Positions 3,981 through 29,781 of a DNA stretch of 51,010 nucleotides are shown piece after piece. Made by a program: the position numbers and the translations under genes. The DNA is from Clostridiales bacterium (lineage in GTDB: Bacteria; Bacillota; Clostridia; Lachnospirales; Lachnospiraceae). The stretch's first letter is position 1; each line of letters begins with the position of its first letter. The notes under the pieces were generated by a model, which searched no databases, was not told where the DNA came from, and saw only the letters and a program-made list of their open reading frames with translations. Location of the stretch: NCBI GenBank assembly GCA_020860565.1, contig JAJBUA010000011.1, positions 1 through 51,010 on the forward strand. Reading direction: 5' to 3'.

Positions 3981-5096
3981 TCAGATTAAAAATATATCCT
4001 GCCGCAAAACCGCCCGGAACCACCGCGACTCCGGATTCGCATTTTTCCAGTATTCTCTTATAAGTTGACGTTCTTCTCCTGTCAGACTTTTCCAGACTTC
4101 ATCCTGAATACACGTCTCCAGACGATAACTCCCATGGACATCTCCGGAAGAGAGACGGGATTTTTCCAGATCCGCAACATAAACCTGCGTCGCTCCATTC
4201 TGAAAGGCATGATGAATGCGTCGTCGCAAAACGCCGTCCAGTTCCCCATCCTCACAGCGATCAAGCAGAAAATACGCGGTTTTCTCCTGTACGATATGTG
4301 TTTGCAGGATAGCGTAACGCCAGTGGCAGTTCTCTCGATTAAGCCACGCAGAAAGTGCTTCTTCGTATTTAATATCAACCAGCGTCAGACCTCTGGCCGG
4401 GGCTGTCTCAGCAGCCGCCTGACGATCTCTGGCCTCCAGAATTTCCCGCACGCGCTCCGGAGAAACCTGACCGGAACCAACGCGAAGCAGGGTGCCGACG
4501 ATAATCCGCACCATATTATAAAGGAAACCGCTCCCGCTGATACGAACCGTGATCACGTCTTCATTCCTGCTCAGACTGATGTCGTAAATCGTGCGCACCG
4601 TCTCCTCTGCCTGTGTACGGGGCGTACAGAAGCTCTTAAAATCATGTTCTCCGATCAGATACCGCGCCGCCTCCCGCATCCGATCAACGTCCAGCGGCTG
4701 ATGACACCAATACGCATACAGCCGCTCCTGCGGCAGCGGGATCCTGCGGTTCGCGATCCGGTACTCGTAAGTCTTAGCCGCGTTTGTCCTGCGCGGATGC
4801 CAGTCTCCCGGCACTTCTGCGGAATCAAGCACACGGATATCCTCCGGCAGGCGCTGATTGACAGCAAAACAAATCTTGTCCGCCGGTATACGACTCCCGG
4901 TATCAAAAATGGCGACATTGCCCCTCGCATGTACGCCGCTGTCCGTGCGGCTGGCACCGATCACGGCGATTGGCTCATGGAAAAGGTCTGTCAAAGCCCG
5001 GTTCAGAGCCGCCTCGATCGTCGGTCTGCCGGGCTGAATCTGCCATCCGCAGTAATTGGTGCCATCGTAGGCTACGGTCAGGCGTATTCTCTTCAT
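3981..5096 (-). CDS. truA: tRNA pseudouridine synthase TruA with a C-terminal extension
   Basis: TruA isomerises uridines 38-40 in the anticodon arm of many tRNAs. Residues 1-245 form a complete TruA. The catalytic Asp52 lies in RTDSGVHA, and GSGFLYNMVRIIVGTL (189-204) is the conserved C-domain motif. Ordinary TruA ends near GLTLVDIKYEE at about 247. This protein runs on to residue 371 with a segment beginning WLNRENCHWRYAILQT that I do not recognise. The chosen ATG at 5096 overlaps the ecfT stop as ATGA, and the product then begins MKRIRLTVAYDGTNY as the family does. An upstream in-frame start would add about 41 residues that overlap ecfT. Gene order ecfA1-ecfA2-ecfT-truA is common in Firmicutes. 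Confidence 0.93.
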   Translation of the reverse strand: MKRIRLTVAYDGTNYCGWQIQPGRPTIEAALNRALTDLFHEPIAVIGASRTDSGVHARGNVAIFDTGSRIPADKICFAVNQRLPEDIRVLDSAEVPGDWHPRRTNAAKTYEYRIANRRIPLPQERLYAYWCHQPLDVDRMREAARYLIGEHDFKSFCTPRTQAEETVRTIYDISLSRNEDVITVRISGSGFLYNMVRIIVGTLLRVGSGQVSPERVREILEARDRQAAAETAPARGLTLVDIKYEEALSAWLNRENCHWRYAILQTHIVQEKTAYFLLDRCEDGELDGVLRRRIHHAFQNGATQVYVADLEKSRLSSGDVHGSYRLETCIQDEVWKSLTGEERQLIREYWKNANPESRWFRAVLRQDIFLI

Positions 5097-15255: not shown

Positions 15256-16458
15256 TTACAACGCCATTTCATAAATTTTCTTTATATCATCTTTGTAAAG
15301 ATGTTTAAAGAACGCCACATACCCGACTCCGTTGGAATCCGCGCACTTCTGGGCCATCTCATCGATCTGTTCCGGCGTCGGATGAATATTCATCTCGGAC
15401 ATGCTGGTAGGCATACCGATCTTATGACACCACTCCTCGAAAGCTTCGATCCCTTTGATGGCAGTTCCGTTAATATCGGAAAAGTCTTCCGAAACTCCCA
15501 TCACACGGACAGCGAATTTTGCAAACCGCGCAGGATTTGTACTCATGCAATATCTTGCCCAGCTGCCCCAGACCGCACAGAGACCGGCTCCGTGAGTCAT
15601 ATCAAACATACCGCCCATCTCAGCCTGGAGTTTGTGAGGGCCCCAGTCTGCCATACGTCCGCAGCCGGTCAGTCCGTTATGGGAAAGACTTCCGGCCCAC
15701 ATCAGTGTTGCGCGGGCGTCATAATTGGTCGGTTCCTTCATGGCTACAATCGCCGCTTCCTTTACCGATATCATCAGCCCTTCGGCGATATGATCTACCA
15801 GGTCCGTCCCTTCCACATTATGGAAATAACGCTCCATCGTATGCATCATGATATCAGCCGCACCGCAGGCAATCTGATATTTAGGAAGGGTAAAGGTAAT
15901 AACCGGATCCAGAATTGCAAAAAGCGGACGTCCGATATCGTTAAGGTAGGTGCGTTTCACATGATCCTCATCAATCGTAATCACCATGGCGTTACTCATC
16001 TCTGAGCCGGTCGCTGCAATCGTGATGATGCAGCCCAGCGGCGCGATTTTCACCTTTTCTTTTGGTATCTTATGGAGGCTGAGATCCAGTACCAGATCCA
16101 GAATATCAAAATCATCATTTGCGATACCGTAGGCTATCGCCTTTGCCGAATCAACCGCACTTCCGCCTCCTATGGGAAGTATAAAATCCACACCTTCTTT
16201 CCTGCACAGTTCGATTCCCTTGCGGACAAGACTCAGTCTGGGATTGGGGACGACGCCGTCCAGATCGATATATTCCAGACCGGCGTCCATAAGGCTTTTA
16301 TGTACCTTATCCAGGATTCCATTTTCCTGGAGGAACGTATCGCCATAGTGTACCAGTACCTTGTGAGCGCCCCGCGACGCGATCTCTTTGCCCACTTCCA
16401 GTTCGGCATCGCGTCCGAATATCACTTTTGTAGGCGCATAATAAGTAAAATTATTCAT
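15256..16458 (-). CDS. Iron-containing alcohol dehydrogenase
   Basis: This 400-residue NAD(P)H-dependent dehydrogenase belongs to the Fe-ADH (type III) family, closest in layout to butanol-dehydrogenase-like members. Visible are the nucleotide motif GGGSAVDSAKAIAYG (about residues 97-111), the ATGSEMSNAMVIT segment, and the metal-binding DIMMHTMERYF and MTHGAGLCAVWGSWARY elements. It is the last gene downstream of the zinc dehydrogenase (40 bases apart) in the sigma-54 PTS operon. Its likely job there is to interconvert an alcohol and aldehyde or ketone released from the sugar pathway, perhaps for redox balance; the substrate is not known. Confidence 0.93.
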   Translation of the reverse strand: MNNFTYYAPTKVIFGRDAELEVGKEIASRGAHKVLVHYGDTFLQENGILDKVHKSLMDAGLEYIDLDGVVPNPRLSLVRKGIELCRKEGVDFILPIGGGSAVDSAKAIAYGIANDDFDILDLVLDLSLHKIPKEKVKIAPLGCIITIAATGSEMSNAMVITIDEDHVKRTYLNDIGRPLFAILDPVITFTLPKYQIACGAADIMMHTMERYFHNVEGTDLVDHIAEGLMISVKEAAIVAMKEPTNYDARATLMWAGSLSHNGLTGCGRMADWGPHKLQAEMGGMFDMTHGAGLCAVWGSWARYCMSTNPARFAKFAVRVMGVSEDFSDINGTAIKGIEAFEEWCHKIGMPTSMSEMNIHPTPEQIDEMAQKCADSNGVGYVAFFKHLYKDDIKKIYEMAL

Positions 16459-19921: not shown

Positions 19922-20782
19922 TTAATAACGATTTGCCGAACCAAACAGCTCCATATAATGACGGCATTTCGCGGTGAAGCCCTCATTGAACGCATTCACC
20001 TTCGCGTTGAAGAATGGCGGAAGCTTGCCGCTCTTCTCTGCCTCCTGCAGATGCGCGATGCCTGCCGCCGGCAGATCCGTGGCGATATTGATCTTATTGA
20101 TACCGCTGTGCGACAGCCGATAGAGGTTATCGTCTCCCGTACTGCTTCCTCCGTGCAAAACCAGCGGAAGATCCACGATCTTCTTCACCTCTTCCAGTCG
20201 GTCAAAATCGATGTGCGGCGTACCCTTGTACATGCCATGCGCGGTGCCGATCGCGACTGCCAGGGAATCACACCCGGTACGTTCCACATACTCCGCCGTC
20301 AGATCGATATCCGTCAGATTGGTAACGCCGTCTACCGCATAGTTATTTCCCTGACCTACATGTCCCAGCTCAGCTTCTACGCTAACTCCGCACGCATGGG
20401 CGATCCGGACCAGATCGGAAACCTTCTGAACGTTCTCCTCATAAGGAAGCTCGCTGCAGTCCGCCATGATCGACGTACATCCCGCTGCGATGCAGCAGAT
20501 CCAGGATTCAAAACATGGACCGTGATCCTGCTGGATGACAACCGGAGTCCGTGAACGATCCGCCAGGATACTCAGCTGCTGGACATAATCATTCAGCCAT
20601 CTCTTCCCTGCAAAGCTCCCGTACGGTCCATGAAAATGGATGTCCAGGATAACCGGGGCCCCGATCTCCTCCGCCGCGTTCACGATGCATCGTCCGGTCT
20701 CCACATTGATAATGTTGGGGGCGCAGACCGCATACCCATCCCTTTTAGCCGCATTTAACACTTCACTCGCATTTACTAACAT
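19922..20782 (-). CDS. Class II fructose/tagatose-bisphosphate-type aldolase
   Basis: This is a zinc-dependent aldolase of 286 residues, the family's usual length. It opens MLVNASEVLNAAKRDGYAV. Zn and active-site elements visible are QQDHG (about residues 83-87), EAELGHVGQG, GTAHGMYKG (His ligand) and LHGGSSTGD, followed by KINIATD. Members cleave fructose-, tagatose- or related ketose bisphosphates, and some take monophosphates. It is the first gene after a near-perfect sigma-54 promoter at 20847-20861 and leads aldolase, EIIC-EIID, EIIB, zinc dehydrogenase and Fe-ADH. Its context says it splits the phosphorylated product of the PTS, but the true substrate is unknown. Confidence 0.93.
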   Translation of the reverse strand: MLVNASEVLNAAKRDGYAVCAPNIINVETGRCIVNAAEEIGAPVILDIHFHGPYGSFAGKRWLNDYVQQLSILADRSRTPVVIQQDHGPCFESWICCIAAGCTSIMADCSELPYEENVQKVSDLVRIAHACGVSVEAELGHVGQGNNYAVDGVTNLTDIDLTAEYVERTGCDSLAVAIGTAHGMYKGTPHIDFDRLEEVKKIVDLPLVLHGGSSTGDDNLYRLSHSGINKINIATDLPAAGIAHLQEAEKSGKLPPFFNAKVNAFNEGFTAKCRHYMELFGSANRY

Positions 20783-20846
20783 ATGTACTATCCTTCCTTT
20801 CCTTTATATTTTTTTCATACATATTAGTAGTTACCTTTATATAATA

Positions 20847-20861
20847 GCAAAAACCGTGCCA
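20847..20861 (-). promoter_or_regulatory. Sigma-54 (-24/-12) promoter of the aldolase-PTS-dehydrogenase operon
   Basis: On the minus strand TGGCAC (20861-20856), five bases, then TTGC (20850-20847) match the sigma-54 consensus exactly, with correct GG-GC spacing. Transcription should begin about 12 bases further on, near 20836, leaving a leader of about 55 bases to the aldolase ATG. The site touches the stop codon of the preceding gene. A second promoter with nearly the same core is at 25293-25307. Confidence 0.93.
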
Positions 20862-21593
20862 CTACTCTTCCGGCAAGAAGTCCGTTTTGCCGTCCGATCC
20901 TGCAGCCGTCATTCCCCGGCGCGCCGTTTCCTGTAAAACATACTGCATAAAATATGCATAAGGACCGGCAGACAGCGGCCTGCGCGAACCTTTCCGGTAA
21001 AGGTAAGCGCTCACATGCTTTTCTCCGATCTTCGCCTGATATTCCTTCGCCTCGTAATCAAACAGATGCTGGATACAGCCGGTTTCCGCTTCAGAGAGGA
21101 GCCGGTCGCAGGCTTCATAATCCCGGACAGAATATTTGCCGGCAAAAATATCCTCCACCAGCTGATCCGGATCCTCCGCCCTGACCGGAAGAAGCATGGA
21201 AGTACGGCCGGTTTTCCTGGCCTGTGCCCAAAAGACGCGGAAACCATCTTTCGCCTCACGAAAATATACGATGCGGCTGCCTTCGGCTCCCGAAACCTCA
21301 TAAAAGAATCTCTGCACCGGATCGCGGGAGCGATATGTGCCATAAGATCGCGGAATCCTCATCGGTTCGCTCCCCTTCCTGCGGTTTTCCGGGTAATGAT
21401 AGTGCCGCACCGGCTCCGATGCACCGCCGCTCCCTCCCTTTACCAGAATTTCATACGCATAAGATACCGACGCCGATACAAATACCAGTGCCAGGACGCC
21501 GCAGACTACATTTCGCGTCTGAACGGTCAGCCAGATAAAAAACACTGCAGAAAGAGCCGGGATCACCAGCGTGTTACCTGCTTTTCTCAGCAT
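20862..21593 (-). CDS. Hypothetical membrane-anchored protein of the PTS locus
   Basis: I do not recognise this 243-residue protein. Residues about 8-47 form two hydrophobic segments, so the remainder is probably cytoplasmic. A basic stretch rich in His/Arg/Tyr follows (about 60-95). The C-terminal 140 residues are a mixed alpha/beta region with many charged residues (RIVYFREAKDGFRVFWAQ; DYEACDRLLSEAETGC; KIGEKHVSAYLYRKG). It follows HPr by 40 bases in the EIIA-levR-HPr operon and ends right at the second sigma-54 promoter. Being inside the operon suggests a link to the PTS, but there is no direct evidence of function. Confidence 0.75.
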   Translation of the reverse strand: MLRKAGNTLVIPALSAVFFIWLTVQTRNVVCGVLALVFVSASVSYAYEILVKGGSGGASEPVRHYHYPENRRKGSEPMRIPRSYGTYRSRDPVQRFFYEVSGAEGSRIVYFREAKDGFRVFWAQARKTGRTSMLLPVRAEDPDQLVEDIFAGKYSVRDYEACDRLLSEAETGCIQHLFDYEAKEYQAKIGEKHVSAYLYRKGSRRPLSAGPYAYFMQYVLQETARRGMTAAGSDGKTDFLPEE

Positions 21594-21952: not shown

Positions 21953-24784
21953 TCATTCCTTCTGTCCGAATGCTTCGTCCGTTTCCGGAAGCGTAAGCAT
22001 AAAATAAAAACATTCCGCATCAGAAACCGGAAATCCCCCGGCACCAAAGCAGCGGTTCAGCATCTCCTTCAGATATGCAAACCACTTTTCGGAACAGGAA
22101 ATCTCCTCCTGCCCTTCTTCCAGCAACTCGAGCGGGCTGTCATTCACAATTCGTTCCAGCATGCTGGCCGCATGCATAAAAATACGCAGCTCGATGTTAT
22201 CCGGCAGTTTATTCTTATAAACTTCTCTCTCCAGAATCCGGATCGCCTCGGATATACACTGCGTTCCTGTCTCCCGATCCACACTCGGCGCAAGTACACA
22301 GAAATTATTAATCTGTGTCTGGCTGGCTGGCTCTTCCCGCTCCTCATGAATCCAGCCGATATAAGAAGGCATACTCCAGTCCGTCAGGATATTCCTGATC
22401 TTGTCAATTCCCGCTGGAGAAAATACCGTATCGGCGAGGATAAACGGAACTCCCGGTATATCAGGGTTCACGGTCCCTACGATCAGTTTGAGATCTGACC
22501 CGTATGCCGCGGCTTTCGCTCCCACGTCGTCCACAGAACTGACCGCGACTACGCGCAGCGACGGAACCTGTTCGCGCAACTCCTGCTCCAGAAATTTTCT
22601 CATCTGTTCCGCGCTCCCAAAGCCGGTAACGCAGATCGTAAAAATCACCTGTTCCCCGGGCGAGACATTGTCCGCGTCCGTACCGGCAGATCCTTCCTCT
22701 GATCTCCGGAAAAACCACTCCATCTGCTCCCGGTAATCAGCAATGGTCTTATGATACATATCCTCCAGGGAAAGCTGCTGCGTCATCGTATTGCGGCACG
22801 CGATCACCGCCATATGTTCTTCCAGCAAAGTAATCACCCGGCAGGGAATGCCCGTTGCCTCATATAACGCTTCTTCTGTACCACAGAACTGCTGACAATC
22901 GGTAAAGATCAGATTGCCCTTCTCCCCGTGATGCTGCTTGATGTCAAAGCAAAGCATCTCAAAGGCTTTGCGCACTCCCAGCATCGCGTCTTTCTCTACA
23001 CAGTAAACATGATCTGCGCCAAATAGCGACCGGACATACCCCACAATCCCTGCTGCGACATTGCCGCTGCAGGAAATCATCGTAATATGCACATCCGGTT
23101 TCCAGCGGTTTCTCACAGTCTGGCTCAGAAAAGCAGCCAGAAAACCAATCTCATCGTCAGTAATTCCTGTGTTCAGATGATTGCTCAGCCATTCTCTGTG
23201 CTTTCCCAGAAACCTGGTCTCGCTCCGGTAACGGTCGGCCATTTCCCGGATATTCGGCGGGAGTAGCAGATTGCCGGACCGCGCCCGACTCACATACTGC
23301 TCCAGATGCATCGCCAGCAAAATCGGCGTCTTCTGCGGATAGATACGTTCCAGTTCGATCGCCGCCATGCTGATCAGCTTCATCGCCACCGGCAGAATCT
23401 TCGGAGAGATGGCATGTTCCAGCGACAGCAGTCCCTGGTTCACCGCACCGTATTCACTCCCCAGCGTCTCAAAATAACGGTCGATCTGGCGAATCACCAT
23501 CTGCCCGAGTTCCTCGCCCGCCAGCCCCATTTTCCGGCCTTCATCGATCAGGTGAAAAACCTGGTCATAGATATCGACAAACTGCAGCGTCTCATCGGAA
23601 TCAAATTTCGCCGGTTCCCTTGTCGTCACATGCATATCTGTCTGAAACCAGTCTGCCCGCGGGTCGATCTCCCGCGGTAAGTCGGACGCGATCGAATGGA
23701 CCTGAAAAGACAGATCATGAAGCGTAACCGTAATTTCTCCTCCCGGCGTTGACGCCCCGTCCTTTAAAAGCGCCTTCGCGCATGAGAGCTGAACGGCGTT
23801 CTTTAATGTCCCCAGATTGATCCGCGCGGCATAACCCACCAGTGTATTGAGCACGTCTCGTTTCACGCAGATCGCCCGGTCGATATGCTTTGCCTCCTGT
23901 GCGTAAAAGCTGCGGATAAACTCCGGCCACTCGCGCATCGGGCGCTCGGAAAGCGTCGGCAGCTGCAGCAAAACCGGCATCCGGCGGACAAAGGTATCGA
24001 TCAGCGTCGTATTGGAAATCGGTTTCGTCGTCGCGCCGATCAGCATAAAATGCGTTTCTCTCTTTGTATTTTCTCCTACCCGCCGGAAATATCCGGTATC
24101 CAGCAAAGTAAAGAACAACTCCTGGCTCGTACCGGACAGACAGTGAATTTCATCAAGAAAGAAAATGCCCCCGTCTGCTTCTTCGACCAGACCCGGCCGG
24201 TCCGCGATCGAACCGGTGAACGCCCCTTTCTTCGATCCAAATAAAATCGAGAGAAGCAGTTGTGGATTGTCTGCGTACTCCGCGCAGTTAAAATGCACAA
24301 ACGGCACTTCTCTGTCATTGCAGCCAAACGCGTGAATCTCATTTGCATATTCCCAGACTGTACGGGCAAAGGTTGTTTTTCCGATCCCCGTCGGCCCGGT
24401 GATCAGCATGTTCAGCCCGGACGGCGGATAAGAGACTGCCGCCTTCGCGATACTGATCAGGTGCTTCAGACTTCCGTTGCTCCCTACCAGCTTGGAAAAC
24501 GCATCTTCGTTTGCCGCGGATTTCGCATTGGCCGAAGAACATTCCGGCGCCCGGACGGCGGTTCCCTCAGCGTCTGGTTCTGGCGTACCGCTTTCTGCCG
24601 GGAAGAAACGCACATTTTTCTTTCCTTCCCTTCGCAGAAGACCTTTCTCTACCAGTTTATTTAATTCTACCGAAGCATCATTGCGCCAAATCCCCAGATC
24701 GCCTGCGGTCTGCTGCGCCGTCACGCCTTCATCCGCATGTTGAAAGACAAATTCAAGGATTCGATCCTCCCGACGCTTACTCAT
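21953..24784 (-). CDS. LevR-type sigma-54 activator with PRD and EII-like domains
   Basis: This 943-residue transcription activator is driven by PTS phosphorylation. An N-terminal winged helix spans about 1-60. The AAA+ sigma-54 interaction domain has Walker A GPTGIGKTT (130-138), loop 1 GAFTGS (187-192, in place of the usual GAFTGA) and Walker B FFLDEIH (208-214). Next come a PRD domain (about 420-530), an EIIA-Man-like domain (about 565-665) and an EIIB-like segment with CVTGFGSAEQM, then a second PRD near the C-terminus. In the EIIA-like part the expected active His is replaced (ISCSGN). The ATG at 24784 has GGAGTG six bases upstream. It should activate the two sigma-54 promoters at 20847 and 25293. 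Confidence 0.93.
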   Translation of the reverse strand: MSKRREDRILEFVFQHADEGVTAQQTAGDLGIWRNDASVELNKLVEKGLLRREGKKNVRFFPAESGTPEPDAEGTAVRAPECSSANAKSAANEDAFSKLVGSNGSLKHLISIAKAAVSYPPSGLNMLITGPTGIGKTTFARTVWEYANEIHAFGCNDREVPFVHFNCAEYADNPQLLLSILFGSKKGAFTGSIADRPGLVEEADGGIFFLDEIHCLSGTSQELFFTLLDTGYFRRVGENTKRETHFMLIGATTKPISNTTLIDTFVRRMPVLLQLPTLSERPMREWPEFIRSFYAQEAKHIDRAICVKRDVLNTLVGYAARINLGTLKNAVQLSCAKALLKDGASTPGGEITVTLHDLSFQVHSIASDLPREIDPRADWFQTDMHVTTREPAKFDSDETLQFVDIYDQVFHLIDEGRKMGLAGEELGQMVIRQIDRYFETLGSEYGAVNQGLLSLEHAISPKILPVAMKLISMAAIELERIYPQKTPILLAMHLEQYVSRARSGNLLLPPNIREMADRYRSETRFLGKHREWLSNHLNTGITDDEIGFLAAFLSQTVRNRWKPDVHITMISCSGNVAAGIVGYVRSLFGADHVYCVEKDAMLGVRKAFEMLCFDIKQHHGEKGNLIFTDCQQFCGTEEALYEATGIPCRVITLLEEHMAVIACRNTMTQQLSLEDMYHKTIADYREQMEWFFRRSEEGSAGTDADNVSPGEQVIFTICVTGFGSAEQMRKFLEQELREQVPSLRVVAVSSVDDVGAKAAAYGSDLKLIVGTVNPDIPGVPFILADTVFSPAGIDKIRNILTDWSMPSYIGWIHEEREEPASQTQINNFCVLAPSVDRETGTQCISEAIRILEREVYKNKLPDNIELRIFMHAASMLERIVNDSPLELLEEGQEEISCSEKWFAYLKEMLNRCFGAGGFPVSDAECFYFMLTLPETDEAFGQKE

Positions 24785-24806
24785 TGCATTCACTCCAATC
24801 TCTTTT

Positions 24807-25226
24807 TTATGAAAAATCAAAGAATGTTTTCACATCCACCAGACTTTCCTTTCCGGATTGCGCAACCGCTTCGACCAGTTCCTGCCCGGAAAGATTTTCC
24901 CGGAAATTCAAAGCTTCGATCAGCATCGGCAGATTCACTCCGCAAAGCCCGTAAATTCTCGTCTGTGCACAATGTTCCATCACCTGATTAAACGGCGTAC
25001 CGCAAAAGAGATCAAAAAGAATGATCGATCCCTCCGGCATCTCGCCGTATACCCTCATCGCCGCTTCCCCATAGGCCCGGATGTCGGAACCGTCATAAAA
25101 CGGCATTGCTTTCACCCCATCAAAATCCCCGTAAATCATTTTTGCCGACCCGATCAGTCCTTCGCAAAGTGAACCGTGAGACAAGATCAGGATACCGGGT
25201 AGCTTTTTCTCCATTTCGTTTTCCAT
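24807..25226 (-). CDS. PTS mannose-class EIIA component
   Basis: This 139-residue EIIA carries phosphate from HPr to EIIB. The active His17 is in LILSHGSLCEGL, and LFDLFCGTPFNQ and GVNLPMLIEAL are typical of the mannose-class EIIA fold. It is the first gene after the sigma-54 promoter at 25293-25307, and is followed by levR after 22 bases, then HPr. The ATG at 25226 has a GGAG nine bases upstream. EIIB and EIIC-EIID are encoded in the neighbouring operon. Confidence 0.94.
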   Translation of the reverse strand: MENEMEKKLPGILILSHGSLCEGLIGSAKMIYGDFDGVKAMPFYDGSDIRAYGEAAMRVYGEMPEGSIILFDLFCGTPFNQVMEHCAQTRIYGLCGVNLPMLIEALNFRENLSGQELVEAVAQSGKESLVDVKTFFDFS

Positions 25227-25292
25227 ACGCGATTACTCCATTTCTTTTCTGATTTGACTCATTTCGGAGCCTCTTTGATATCTGATTAAAAA

Positions 25293-25307
25293 GCAAAAAC
25301 CATGCCA
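25293..25307 (-). promoter_or_regulatory. Sigma-54 (-24/-12) promoter of the EIIA-levR-HPr operon
   Basis: On the minus strand TGGCAT (25307-25302), five bases, then TTGC (25296-25293) fit the sigma-54 consensus. The core plus flanks (AGTGGCAYGGTTTTTGCT) are the same as at the aldolase promoter except for one base. It is embedded in the 3' arm of the rpoN terminator hairpin and its T tract. Confidence 0.9.
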
Positions 25308-25328
25308 CTACGAGTAGTGACATGGTTT
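25297..25328 (-). terminator. Rho-independent terminator of rpoN, overlapping a sigma-54 promoter
   Basis: 25297-25311 pairs with 25314-25328 over 14-15 bp, including one G-U pair in the minus-strand RNA, and is closed by a very small loop. On the minus strand it is followed by TTGCTTTTT. It starts 21 bases past the rpoN stop codon. Confidence 0.85.
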
Positions 25329-25348
25329 AGTCTTTCGGATCCCGTTTC

Positions 25349-26713
25349 CTAACCAAAAACTTTTCTTCCGTCAGCATTCGGCAGTCCCATCTCTCCCCGG
25401 TACTTCGCTACTGTCCGGCGGGACACCGATACTCCCATCTCTTTTAATTGTTCACATATTTTCTGATCGCTGAGCGGGCAGACCTTATCCTCCTTCTGCA
25501 CGATCTCCCGGATGGCTCCCTGGATCTTCTCCGGCGTCTGCGCCTTCCCGGTCTCTGAGTTTCCCACCGCTTTAGAAAAGAAATAATTTAACGGGTAGAT
25601 TCCCCACGGGCACTGGAGATATTTCCCTCTCACGGCACGGCTCACGGTTGACTCATGAATGTCCAGCTCCTTCGCCACATCCTGCAGCCGCAGCGGCCGG
25701 CGATTGCCCGGCCCCTTCTCAAAAAACGGCTGCTGCAGCCGGACGATGGTCTCCGTCACTTTCGTGAGTGTAGTGCCTCTCTGTGAAATGCAGTTCATCA
25801 CCCACTCCGCCTGCCGGAGTTTATTGCTGATATAATCCCTTGTTTCATCCGAATTGTCCTCTTTAAGCATCTGACAATAATAACTGTTGATCCCGATCTT
25901 CGGATAGGCGTTATCATTTAACAGAATCTGAAAATAATCTTCAAATTTAACAACAGTAACGTCCGGGCGTATGTAATGCAGGTTCTCCCGCGAGCTGAAA
26001 CCGTTCCCCGGCTTCGGATTGAGGCTTCGAATGAGTTCGCAGTTTTTGCGTACCTCATCCAGAGAAATATCCAAAGCAGCAGCAATCTTAGGGATCTGAT
26101 TGCGTCCCAGCAGTTCCAGGCACTCCTGTACGATCCGTTTCGCAACCGGCAGATCCCTCGGCATCCGGGCCAGCTGCAGAGACAGACATTCTGCCAGATC
26201 CTTTGCTCCCACGCCTGCCGGCTCCGCCGACTGCAAAGTCTCAATATAGGAAACTGCCTCCGATTCTGTCAGATCAAATTTCAGGCACAGCGCGTCTGCG
26301 TCCTCCTCCAGATAACCGCGTGAGTCCAGAGAATTTGCCAGATAATACAATACTTCCTCATCTCTTTTATCCCGGCACAGCGGCGTCATCTGCGAGTAAA
26401 CATACTCAGCCAGCGTCTCTTCTTCTCTGGCGGCAACATTCCATTCCCCGTTCTCACGGGCTTCATCCCGCTCCGCCCCGTAGTAAATCCGATTCTGCTC
26501 GTCCGTGGCATTCAGCCATTCCAGCTTGCGTTGGATATCGGACATCCGGTCAGTCTCCTCTCTGGCATGTTCGATCTCTACCAGAGGATTTTCCAGTTCC
26601 TGTTCTTTGACAAACGCCTCCAGTTCCTGATTATTCATCTGCAGAACTTCTGCCGACTGAATCATTCTGGGGGAGAGCGTCTGTTTTTGCGTTGCTGTTA
26701 ATTTCATCTCCAT
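25349..26713 (-). CDS. rpoN: RNA polymerase sigma-54 factor RpoN
   Basis: Sigma-54 directs RNA polymerase to -24/-12 promoters and needs an AAA+ activator. The 454-residue product has the Gln/Leu-rich region I (TATQKQTLSPRMIQSAEVLQMNNQELEAF), an acidic region II, and the core-binding and HTH domains. It ends with the RpoN box variant SRRTVAKYRGEMGLP near residues 430-444, which reads -24. GAGGT precedes the ATG at 26713. Its placing next to its own activator (levR) and its target promoters makes the locus self-contained. A foldback element (26793-26871) lies in its upstream region. Confidence 0.96.
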   Translation of the reverse strand: MEMKLTATQKQTLSPRMIQSAEVLQMNNQELEAFVKEQELENPLVEIEHAREETDRMSDIQRKLEWLNATDEQNRIYYGAERDEARENGEWNVAAREEETLAEYVYSQMTPLCRDKRDEEVLYYLANSLDSRGYLEEDADALCLKFDLTESEAVSYIETLQSAEPAGVGAKDLAECLSLQLARMPRDLPVAKRIVQECLELLGRNQIPKIAAALDISLDEVRKNCELIRSLNPKPGNGFSSRENLHYIRPDVTVVKFEDYFQILLNDNAYPKIGINSYYCQMLKEDNSDETRDYISNKLRQAEWVMNCISQRGTTLTKVTETIVRLQQPFFEKGPGNRRPLRLQDVAKELDIHESTVSRAVRGKYLQCPWGIYPLNYFFSKAVGNSETGKAQTPEKIQGAIREIVQKEDKVCPLSDQKICEQLKEMGVSVSRRTVAKYRGEMGLPNADGRKVFG

Positions 26714-26792
26714 AGTTCTTACCTCATGGACAAATTATACTAAAATGTAGGGATAAAATCAATCTTTTTTGTCAGTATTCAGCAGACAGGCC

Positions 26793-26871
26793 GTCCCTGA
26801 GAGACAAGAATATCTTCCGAGTACCGTTACGTGGAAAATGTCCTCTACAGATATTCATGTCTCTCAGGGAC
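26793..26871. repeat. Foldback element copy 1 (short form)
   Basis: A 79-bp inverted-repeat element. The outer arms GTCCCTGAGAGACA and TGTCTCTCAGGGAC pair perfectly, then GAATATCT pairs after one mismatch, and then comes an internal loop (CTTCCG opposite CTACAG). The right arm is followed by TACTTTATTGA, which the second copy at 29593-29781 also has. It lies between the copA terminator and rpoN. Confidence 0.8.
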
Positions 26872-26920
26872 TACTTTATTGATAAAATATAGAAATATTT
26901 TTTTCGGTCTGGATCTTAAA

Positions 26921-26962
26921 AAGGATGCCGTATTCGATGATCTCAAATACGGCGTTATCCTT
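26921..26962 (-). terminator. Rho-independent terminator of the copper operon
   Basis: Stem 26921-26934 pairs with 26946-26962 (14 bp with a 3-nt bulge). On the minus strand it is followed by TTTTTAAG. It begins five bases after the copA stop codon. Confidence 0.85.
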
Positions 26963-26966
26963 CTTT

Positions 26967-29534
26967 TTACTCGATTGCGAGCACTTTATAATCCTGATCC
27001 TCAACCGCTTTCTTTAACACTGCATCATCCACCGCAACGCTAAGGCTTACTACCGCGGTTCCCTTCTCGTGGCTGACCTCTGCTCCGGCTACGCCTTCGA
27101 TTGCTTCCAGCGTCTTTTTCACTCTTGCCTCGCAGTGGCCGCACATCATACCTTCAATTTTCATTGTCTTTGTCATTTCACTCGTCTCCTTTTTTTGATT
27201 TTCTTTATCATTCACAGACGCATCTTCGGTAAAGACCGATGATACGACCGCGGATTTCACTTTTCTGTCACGGCTCACATCCCTGAGTTTGAAGAGATTC
27301 AGCCGCAGGGCATTGGATACCACACAGAAACTTGACAGGCTCATCGCCGCCGCTCCGAACATCGGGTTCAGCTTCCAGCCAAAGAGCGGGATATAGACAC
27401 CGGCCGCCAGCGGGATCCCGATCACATTGTAAAAGAACGCCCAGAAAAGATTTTCATGGATATTTCTTAATGTCGCGCGGCTTAAACGGATCGCCGCCGG
27501 GACGTCGCTTAATCGGCTCTTCATCAGGACCACGTCTGCGGCGTCGATCGCGATATCCGTGCCCGCGCCGATCGCGATGCCGATATCTGCGCGGGTAAGC
27601 GCCGGAGCGTCATTGATGCCGTCACCGACCATCGCCACCTTGCCATGCTCTTTTAACTTACGGATCACACTTTCCTTGCCGTCCGGCAGGACACCGGCAA
27701 TCACCTCGTCCACTCCGGCCTGTGCGCCGATCGCACGCGCTGTCTTCTCATTATCACCGGTCAGCATCACGACATGGATTCCCATGCCCTGCAGTTCTTT
27801 TACTGCCTGCGAACTGTCTTCTTTAATCACATCCGCCACAGCGATAATACCGATCAAACTGCTGCCCTTCATAAACAGCAGCGGAGTCTTGCCCTGATCG
27901 GCCAGATCCTCTGCCTGCTTTTGCAACGCCGTGCTCACCGAAGTCTGACCACTGATAAACTTAAGACTGCCGCCGGTCAGCTTCTCCCCATGCCATAATG
28001 CCGTCAGGCCATTGCCCGGCAGCGCCCGGAAGTTTTCGACATCTTCCGGCTGTGCTCCGGTCTCCTCGGCCTTTGCCAGAATTGCTTTTGCCAGCGGATG
28101 CTCACTCTTTCTTTCCAGCGCATAAGCCGCCGTCAATAGTTCATTTACAGTAAATCCGTTCGCCGGAACCAGATCGGTCACTTTCGGTTCGCCGCTGGTG
28201 ATCGTACCGGTCTTATCCAGCGCCACGATCTGCATCTTACCAGCCTCCTCCAAAGAGACTGCGGTCTTAAAGAGGATACCGTTTTTCGCTCCCAGACCGT
28301 TTCCTACCATAATCGCCACCGGAGTCGCCAGACCCAGCGCGCATGGGCAGCTGATCACCAGAACCGAGATTCCCCGCGCCAGCGCGAACGCAAAATCCTG
28401 TCCCGCCAACAGCCAGACGATCGTCGTGATGACTGCGATCGTGATCACCGTCGGCACGAAGACACCCGACACTTTATCCGCGATCTTGGCAATCGGCGCC
28501 TTGGTCGCCGCCGCATCGCTGACCATACGGATGATCTGGGAAAGCGTCGTATCCTCGCCAACTCTTGTCGCCTCACAGCGGATAAAGCCGGACTGGTTCA
28601 CCGTAGCAGCCGAAACCAGGTCTCCCGACACCTTATCTACCGGAATACTCTCGCCGGTCAGCGCCGCCTCATTGACTGCGCTGCTGCCCTCCACGATTAC
28701 ACCGTCCACCGGGATGTTTTCTCCCGGACGAACGATAAAAATATCGCCTTTATGCACCTGTTCAATCGGCACTGTGACTTCTTCTCCGCCGTGCAGGATA
28801 ACCGCGGTCTTTGGCGCCAGCTTCATCAGGCTCTTAAGCGCGTCGGTCGTCCTGCCTTTGGAGCGTGCCTCCAGCATCTTCCCTACTGTGATCAAAGTCA
28901 GAATCATCGCCGCGGACTCAAAATAGAATTCGTCCATATAGGTCATGACCGCGTCCATGTCGCCGTATACCTGAGCATCCGTCATCGCAAAGAGCGCGTA
29001 TACGCTCCAGACAAAGGACGCCATGGAGCCCATCGCTACCAGCGTATCCATATTGGGAGCGCGGTGCAGCAGGCTTTTAAACCCGCTAATAAAAAATTTC
29101 TGATTGATCACCATGACGATCGCCGCGAGAATCATCTGCACCAATCCCATCGCTACATGATTGCCGTCAAACCAGCTGGGCAGCGGCCATCCCCACATCA
29201 TATGGCCCATGGAAAAATACATTAAGACAAGCAGGAATCCCAGCGAAGCGATCAGGCGCTGCTTTAATACCGGCGTCTCGCGGTCTTTTAATGCATCCTC
29301 ATCGGCAGCCGCACGGTTGGACGCGCCTGCCGCAGCGCCCTTGACTGACGCGCCGTATCCGGCTTCTTCTACCGCACGAATAATTTCTGACACTGCCGCG
29401 CTGCCTTCAACTCCCATTGAGTTCGTCAAAAGGCTTACGGAGCAGGCGGTGACGCCGGGCACTTTGGATACAGCTTTTTCTACCCGTGCGCTACATGCGG
29501 CGCAACTCATGCCTGTAACATTATATTGCTCCAT
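26967..29534 (-). CDS. copA: Copper-exporting P1B-type ATPase CopA with HMA domains at both ends
   Basis: CopA pumps Cu(I) out of the cell using ATP. The 855-residue product has an N-terminal heavy-metal domain with GMSCAAC (Cys11, Cys14), about eight membrane segments, the A-domain TGES (293-296), the membrane metal motif CPC (396-398), the phosphorylated Asp440 in DKTGT, the SEHPLAKA motif and GDGINDAP. After the last membrane segment a linker leads to a second HMA domain (about 787-855) with MMCGHC, so the pump has metal domains at both termini. It is the last gene after csoR and the HMA protein gene. The gap before it holds a 189-bp foldback element. Confidence 0.96.
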
Positions 29535-29592: not shown

Positions 29593-29781
29593 GTCCCTGA
29601 GAGGAAAACATATCCTCCGGGGACCGCTTGCGCTCAGGTTTTCACGTAGCAGTACTCCATATGACGTGTCACTGGCACGTCATATGGATACACTAAGGCA
29701 TAAGTTCGCAAGAAAAGCATCTTGCTCACTAAGTGCCGACGTGAAAAATGTCCCCTGCGGATATGTTTTCCTCTCAGGGAC
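29593..29781. repeat. Foldback element copy 2 (long form)
   Basis: A 189-bp inverted-repeat element between the HMA gene and copA. The outer arms (29593-29624 and 29750-29781) pair over about 29 of 32 positions. An inner perfect 13-bp hairpin lies at 29656-29668 / 29676-29688, and further small pairings (CTTGCG/CGCAAG) suggest a multi-branched fold. The ends and right flank (CTCTCAGGGAC then TACTTTATTGA) match copy 1. Against copy 1, stem bases differ in both arms so that pairing is kept. Confidence 0.8.

Follow-up and report, generated by a model that had tools for sequence, protein, structure and literature searches.

The stretch of DNA analysed here, referred to as the window, comprises 51,010 nucleotides of contig JAJBUA010000011.1 from a Clostridiales bacterium. 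Its minus strand carries, in this order, copA, rpoN, EIIA-man, the gene for a LevR/DagR-type activator, HPr, an ORF of 243 aa, an aldolase gene, EIIC-EIID, EIIB and two alcohol dehydrogenase genes, with a gap of 122 bases between rpoN and EIIA. The features are listed below in the direction of transcription.

26967-29534, minus strand: copA, named from reading the translation
26734..26762, minus strand: sigma-A-type promoter-like site TTGATT-17-TATAAT, 5' of rpoN; consensus match only
25349..26713, minus strand: rpoN, sigma-54, 454 aa; PF00309, PF04963 and PF04552, with TIGR02395 above its cut-off
25297..25328, minus strand: hairpin of 14 pairs with a CUCG loop, probable stem of the rpoN terminator; kept in 3/3 junctions compared
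25292..25307, minus strand: sigma-54 promoter P1, TGGCATGGTTTTTGCT; exact consensus match, -24/-12 unchanged in 3/3
25287..25299, minus strand: T tract TTTTTGCTTTTTA, broken by the -12 GC
25279..25283, minus strand: transcription start of P1, predicted at about 25281 from its typical distance to the -12 element
24807..25226, minus strand: EIIA, mannose family PTS, 139 aa; PF03610
21953..24784, minus strand: LevR/DagR-type sigma-54 activator with PRD; PF00158, PF00874
21634..21906, minus strand: HPr; PF00381
20862..21593, minus strand: ORF of 243 aa, no Pfam match; its end directly abuts P2
20846..20861, minus strand: second sigma-54 promoter P2, TGGCACGGTTTTTGCT; hairpin not above chance
19922..20782, minus strand: class II fructose-bisphosphate aldolase family protein; PF01116
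18221..19849, minus strand: EIIC-EIID fusion, mannose family; PF03609, PF03613
17636..18121, minus strand: EIIB, mannose/sorbose family; PF03830
16499-17581, minus strand: zinc-type alcohol dehydrogenase
15256-16458, minus strand: iron-type alcohol dehydrogenase

The combination of an AAA+ and PRD activator with mannose-family EII genes is that of a LevR/DagR-type PTS operon. The activator matches the DagR equivalog NF047795 over residues 17-928 with 326 bits, below the NCBI curated cut-off of 1400. Walker A and B are present, and the motif is GAFTGS in 3/3 orthologues rather than the usual GAFTGA, a motif named in PMC6615313. A scan of positions 24600-27000 against Rfam yielded zero families at the gathering threshold. 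An inverted-repeat element, GTCCCTGAGAG ... CTCTCAGGGAC, is present twice, at 26793-26871 (5' of rpoN) and at 29593-29781 (5' of the copA-like gene). The copies have arms of 32 nt, 84% and 94% complementary, and look like members of a small repeat family.

The hairpin behind rpoN has the sequence AAACCATGTCACTA-CTCG-TAGTGGCATGGTTT (25328-25297) and is followed by the tail TTGCTTTTTA. The fold of a 66-nt RNA has an energy of -25.3 kcal/mol, whereas its shuffles average -10.6 (z -5.2, 0/200 shuffles), and a 59-nt fold of the hairpin gave a z of -6.5 (0/200 shuffles). The form is that of an intrinsic terminator, with a stable stem-loop and a T run immediately 3' of it that is broken by GC. The break that the -12 GC makes in the U tract is expected to weaken termination, a point against the explanation favoured below.

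The 3' arm of the hairpin and the T tract together read TGGCATG-GTTT-TTGCT (25307-25292), an exact fit to TGGCAYR-N4-TTGCW. The -24 GG is at 25306-25305 and the -12 GC at 25294-25293, with 10 bases between them (GG-N10-GC). P1 and the stem overlap by 11 bases (25297-25307), and the -12 TTGC lies inside the T tract. An earlier sequence-only reading had claimed that hairpin and promoter share bases; this is borne out, and the range that it gave was right within a few bases. P1 also fits the Clostridiales sigma-54 consensus published in PMC6615313, which in the relevant passages is TTGGCATNNNNNTTGCT, save for the leading T. The strict pattern TGGCAYRNNNNTTGCW has 7 sites in the 2.83-Mb genome as compared with 1 for the reversed control, and P1 and P2 are its only exact matches in the window. 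Matches in the window with up to two mismatches to the sigma-54 pattern were at chance level (22 found versus 24 expected), so only exact matches were used.

A sigma-54 promoter is expected at this position because the downstream genes include a sigma-54 activator. The top sigma-A-like match on the minus strand between rpoN and the activator gene (24401-25349) reaches just 9/12 and lies within EIIA, which leaves P1 as the best candidate for the operon promoter. Because accidental combinations of a site and a hairpin do occur, as described below, the case for P1 rests on setting and conservation and not on the match alone.

P2 precedes the aldolase, EIICD and EIIB genes and has GTAGTGGCAYGGTTTTTGCT in common with P1, the two promoters matching over 20 bases with one C/T difference. 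Its 22-base core, GAGTAGTGGCACGGTTTTTGCT, is identical in three genomes while the adjoining upstream coding sequence and the flanks differ. P2 folds at the level of its shuffles (z -1.1) and lacks both a complementary 5' arm and a T run after the GC, whereas P1 has both, the T run in 3/3 junctions; the 5' arm and T run specific to P1 are what a terminator requires. GTAG stands before TGGCA in P1 and P2 and is absent from the other five strict sites in the genome, and is therefore a mark of this locus. Within 400 bases upstream and 200 downstream in the three genomes, P1 and P2 had neither a common 12-mer (up to one mismatch) outside the cores nor a common inverted repeat with exact 7-base arms. 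The P2 region (20826-20866) contains an inverted pair, of which one member, AGTAGT, is at the -24 element and the other, CTACT, is conserved and located some 30 bases past that element, near the expected start.

We searched for EIIA orthologues in 24 genomes of the genus, in 299 of the family and in 9 of the genus to which G321 belongs, and a contig scan with the activator as query gave two loci, one of them on the contig of G008. Besides the window, these searches, which may miss distant orthologues, provided two orthologous junctions, in G008 and at locus L106 in G321. Of 66 loci checked for an RpoN box, only those of the window and G008 showed one. The RpoN protein of the window has 90% identity to its G008 counterpart and 74% to its G321 counterpart, and the remainder of the 25 best-scoring loci listed reach no more than 50%. 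The genes 5' of rpoN in G321 read like ispH and rpsA, not copA (names by reading translations), so that the linkage of rpoN with the EIIA-activator operon is kept in differing surroundings. The activator gene of G321 (L172 7453-10296) appears as two same-frame ORFs, perhaps because of a real stop or a sequencing error, the MAG being of low coverage.

The G008 junction, which is the same as that of L105 (JAJQAC010000073.1, MAG Clostridiales bacterium BH.7_2), comes from a sequence with 86% DNA identity to the window over 9.8 kb. None of the 36 positions of the element differ, versus 14 of 86 in the remaining gap (Fisher p 0.0099, or p = 0.0043 when the ribosome-binding end is excluded). L106 (JAJQCU010000376.1, MAG Lachnospiraceae bacterium C.8_9) has 74% DNA identity over 4.8 kb, and its element has the sequence AAAAAGCATGCCACTACTCGTAGTGGCATGCTTTTTGCTTTG. 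Here three bases of the stem differ from the window, the -24 and -12 elements are unchanged and 14/14 pairs are kept, as counted from alignment A3. The changes include a compensatory C-G to G-C swap, of which the 3' base is a free base of the promoter spacer, and a U-G to C-G change in a second pair. The hairpin of L106 folds with a z of -5.1, and three random stem changes preserved all pairs in 1.3% of simulations. In a shuffle control for covariation, 154/500 shuffles reached the observed score; with three junctions, two of them close, the covariation is suggestive and not proven.

Taken at the level of these sequences (n = 3), the pattern suggests that selection may act on the hairpin besides the promoter. 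Hairpin and promoter are present together in the window and at each of the two orthologous junctions; loss of the hairpin with retention of the promoter, which would have spoken against the sequence-only reading, was not seen at the two orthologous loci. The top of the stem and the loop, CACTACTCGTAGTG, are identical in 3/3 junctions, an invariance beyond what a terminator needs and hence compatible with a protein-binding role.

To survey rpoN 3' ends more widely, we sampled 69 rpoN loci (20 + 29 + 20) from the genus and the order, of which 63 were read and 6 dropped since the box was not found; the last 20 were drawn from 22 strong hits, leaving out G463 and G475. A strict sigma-54 site was present within 300 bases of the rpoN 3' end in 4/63 (the window, G008, G561 and G507), and among these four a terminator-like hairpin over the site is present in the window and G008 only. 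At the rpoN 3' ends of the genus, a sigma-54-like site lay within 260 bases in 2/15 (the window and G008; 5 of the 20 loci had been dropped because the box was not found). Among the rpoN 3' ends read, the fused terminator-promoter was seen in this lineage alone. Overlap as a general habit was rejected on the basis of four strict sites at 63 ends, two of them in the hairpin form.

The G507 locus (L170 1872-8433) contains rpoN, a strict site 87 bases past its stop codon, an HPr-containing ORF, another strict site, genes whose translations read like dihydroxyacetone kinase subunits and PTS parts, and a third strict site; the two further sites are at 4057 and 7381. A weak inverted repeat of -9.1 kcal/mol surrounds the first site. 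The juxtaposition of rpoN with a sigma-54 site and PTS genes is thus found more than once, and since neither P2 nor the rpoN-adjacent site of G507 has a hairpin above chance, the overlap is not required for such promoters.

Of 397 family genomes, 4 (about 1%) had a strict-core site within a 7-bp inverted repeat, one match each, and the reversed control gave none among the matches listed; the pattern misses the window itself, owing to the G-U pair of the window. Of the look-alikes, L117 falls within coding sequence, L115 where an ORF of the opposite strand begins and L116 between two convergent ORFs; L118, with a terminator-like hairpin, lies between co-directional transporter ORFs. A match to PF04552, the sigma-54 DNA-binding domain, was absent from all four genomes, for which reason the four were taken as accidents. 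L118 (1501-1537, promoter strand), in genome G031 with no detectable rpoN, is an example from nature of what a scan for sigma-54 promoters would falsely report.

We considered several other explanations for the element. The inverted repeat could be a DNA operator, with a regulator (for example the PRD activator or a repressor) binding CACTACTCGTAGTG beside the -24 element and termination being incidental. The identity of stem top and loop in 3/3 junctions, the GTAG that sets P1 and P2 apart from the other five strict sites and the conserved CTACT of P2 about 30 bases past its -24 would all suit an operator. However, allowing up to one mismatch, the genome has the palindrome ACTACNNGTAGTGNCA at a single place, on both strands thereof, the compensated pair is outside this core and the hairpin is followed by a T run in 3/3 junctions, so that we regard an operator as unlikely. 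A multi-site operator was rejected, the palindrome being unique in the genome.

Two further explanations give up one of the two functions. If the hairpin were a neutral inverted copy beside a real promoter, with little terminator activity, one would expect what is in fact seen, namely that it consists in essence of the promoter block and the reverse complement of that block, and that the U tract is interrupted; yet in L106 the pairing has outlasted changes at three bases of the stem, and in G008 the block shows no difference, versus 14/86 in the flanks, which makes a neutral copy very unlikely. Conversely, the hairpin may be the rpoN terminator and the sigma-54-like match an accident, with EIIA transcribed from elsewhere. 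The look-alikes in 4/397 family genomes, at least one of them terminator-like and intergenic (L118), and the lack of a detectable rpoN in all four of these genomes show that such accidents arise. The site in the window, on the other hand, precedes a sigma-54 activator operon beside rpoN and is kept in 3/3 junctions, retains the GC even though this spoils the T tract, and agrees with P2 over 20 bases but for a single C/T difference, and we find an accidental match here highly improbable.

The explanation that we favour, and consider probable, is that 25287-25328 on the minus strand is bifunctional, serving as the intrinsic terminator of rpoN while its 3' arm and T tract supply the -24/-12 elements of P1 for the EIIA-levR-HPr operon. 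It draws on the geometry, the fit to both consensuses, the gene context and the fact that three species have conserved the two features together, one pair having changed in a compensatory way. The hairpin would terminate transcription, and sigma-54 polymerase would start at about 25281. The main use of the arrangement is presumably insulation, as a compact insulator-promoter shielding an activator-controlled operon from rpoN transcription. The rpoN gene, read from the sigma-A-like promoter, would probably be expressed continuously, and the hairpin would stop this transcription short of an operon that is kept silent until the LevR-type activator acts. Since the predicted P1 start is 3' of the hairpin, transcripts from P1 would not contain the hairpin or be stopped by it, and the hairpin would belong to the rpoN transcript only.

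The short gap may have forced the stop and start signals onto common bases. The promoter is probably the stricter constraint of the two, and the hairpin looks as though a 5' arm and an extra T run had been added to a promoter block that is present elsewhere in the locus without either. The -12 GC is kept in 3/3 junctions despite breaking the T tract, which is what one would expect of a terminator that adapts to limits imposed by the promoter.

The sequence-only reading went further and proposed that polymerase leaving rpoN might disturb sigma-54 holoenzyme waiting at P1, linking the supply of the sigma factor to promoter use; this is not supported. In E. coli, intragenically bound sigma-54 holoenzyme had no significant effect on overlapping genes under the conditions used, according to passages in PMC4591121, which concern the bound holoenzyme as a roadblock and not its displacement by elongation. 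These data argue mildly against roadblocking. That leakage through the terminator primes the activator is a conjecture, attractive because no clear other promoter for the activator was seen. The idea could be extended to a physical feedback device in a self-contained module that brings along its sigma factor, in which holoenzyme parked at P1 and polymerase finishing rpoN would be mutually exclusive at the shared bases, the level of RpoN would tune its own termination and leakage would provide the first activator molecules to ignite the operon, but we hold such a device to be quite unlikely.

No description of an overlap between a terminator and a sigma-54 promoter was found in the literature searched, which mostly did not extend to subscription papers and leaves the absence of such descriptions unproven. 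In the arrangement proposed here, stop and start fall in the same bases in three species, at the gene of the same sigma factor by which the promoter is recognised, and they offer a small testable system for the mutual constraint of a terminator and a silent, activator-dependent promoter. Terminators can conceal sigma-54 promoters from annotation and can mimic them in genomes that lack sigma-54.

Among the loci that resemble this one, G507 likewise has a strict sigma-54 site 87 bases past the rpoN stop, ahead of a PTS gene, but the inverted repeat there is weak (z -0.7) and a T run is lacking. In the frd-ampC region of E. coli, the ampC promoter is located in frdD, and the ampC attenuator, past the start, doubles as the frd terminator. 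Both there and here, the terminator of the upstream operon overlaps the control region of the next gene at a compact junction; here, in contrast, the terminator is upstream of the predicted start, has bases in common with the -24/-12 elements and involves a promoter of the sigma-54 type. LevR/DgaR/MptR-type systems are mannose-family PTS operons controlled by sigma-54. The window shares with them EIIA-man, a PRD-containing sigma-54 activator, EIIB, EIIC/D and consensus -24/-12 promoters; the LevR regulon is treated in parts of PMC6615313. It differs from them in that rpoN is the upstream neighbour, in that two promoters part the regulators from the transporter genes and in that P1 sits in what is probably the rpoN terminator.
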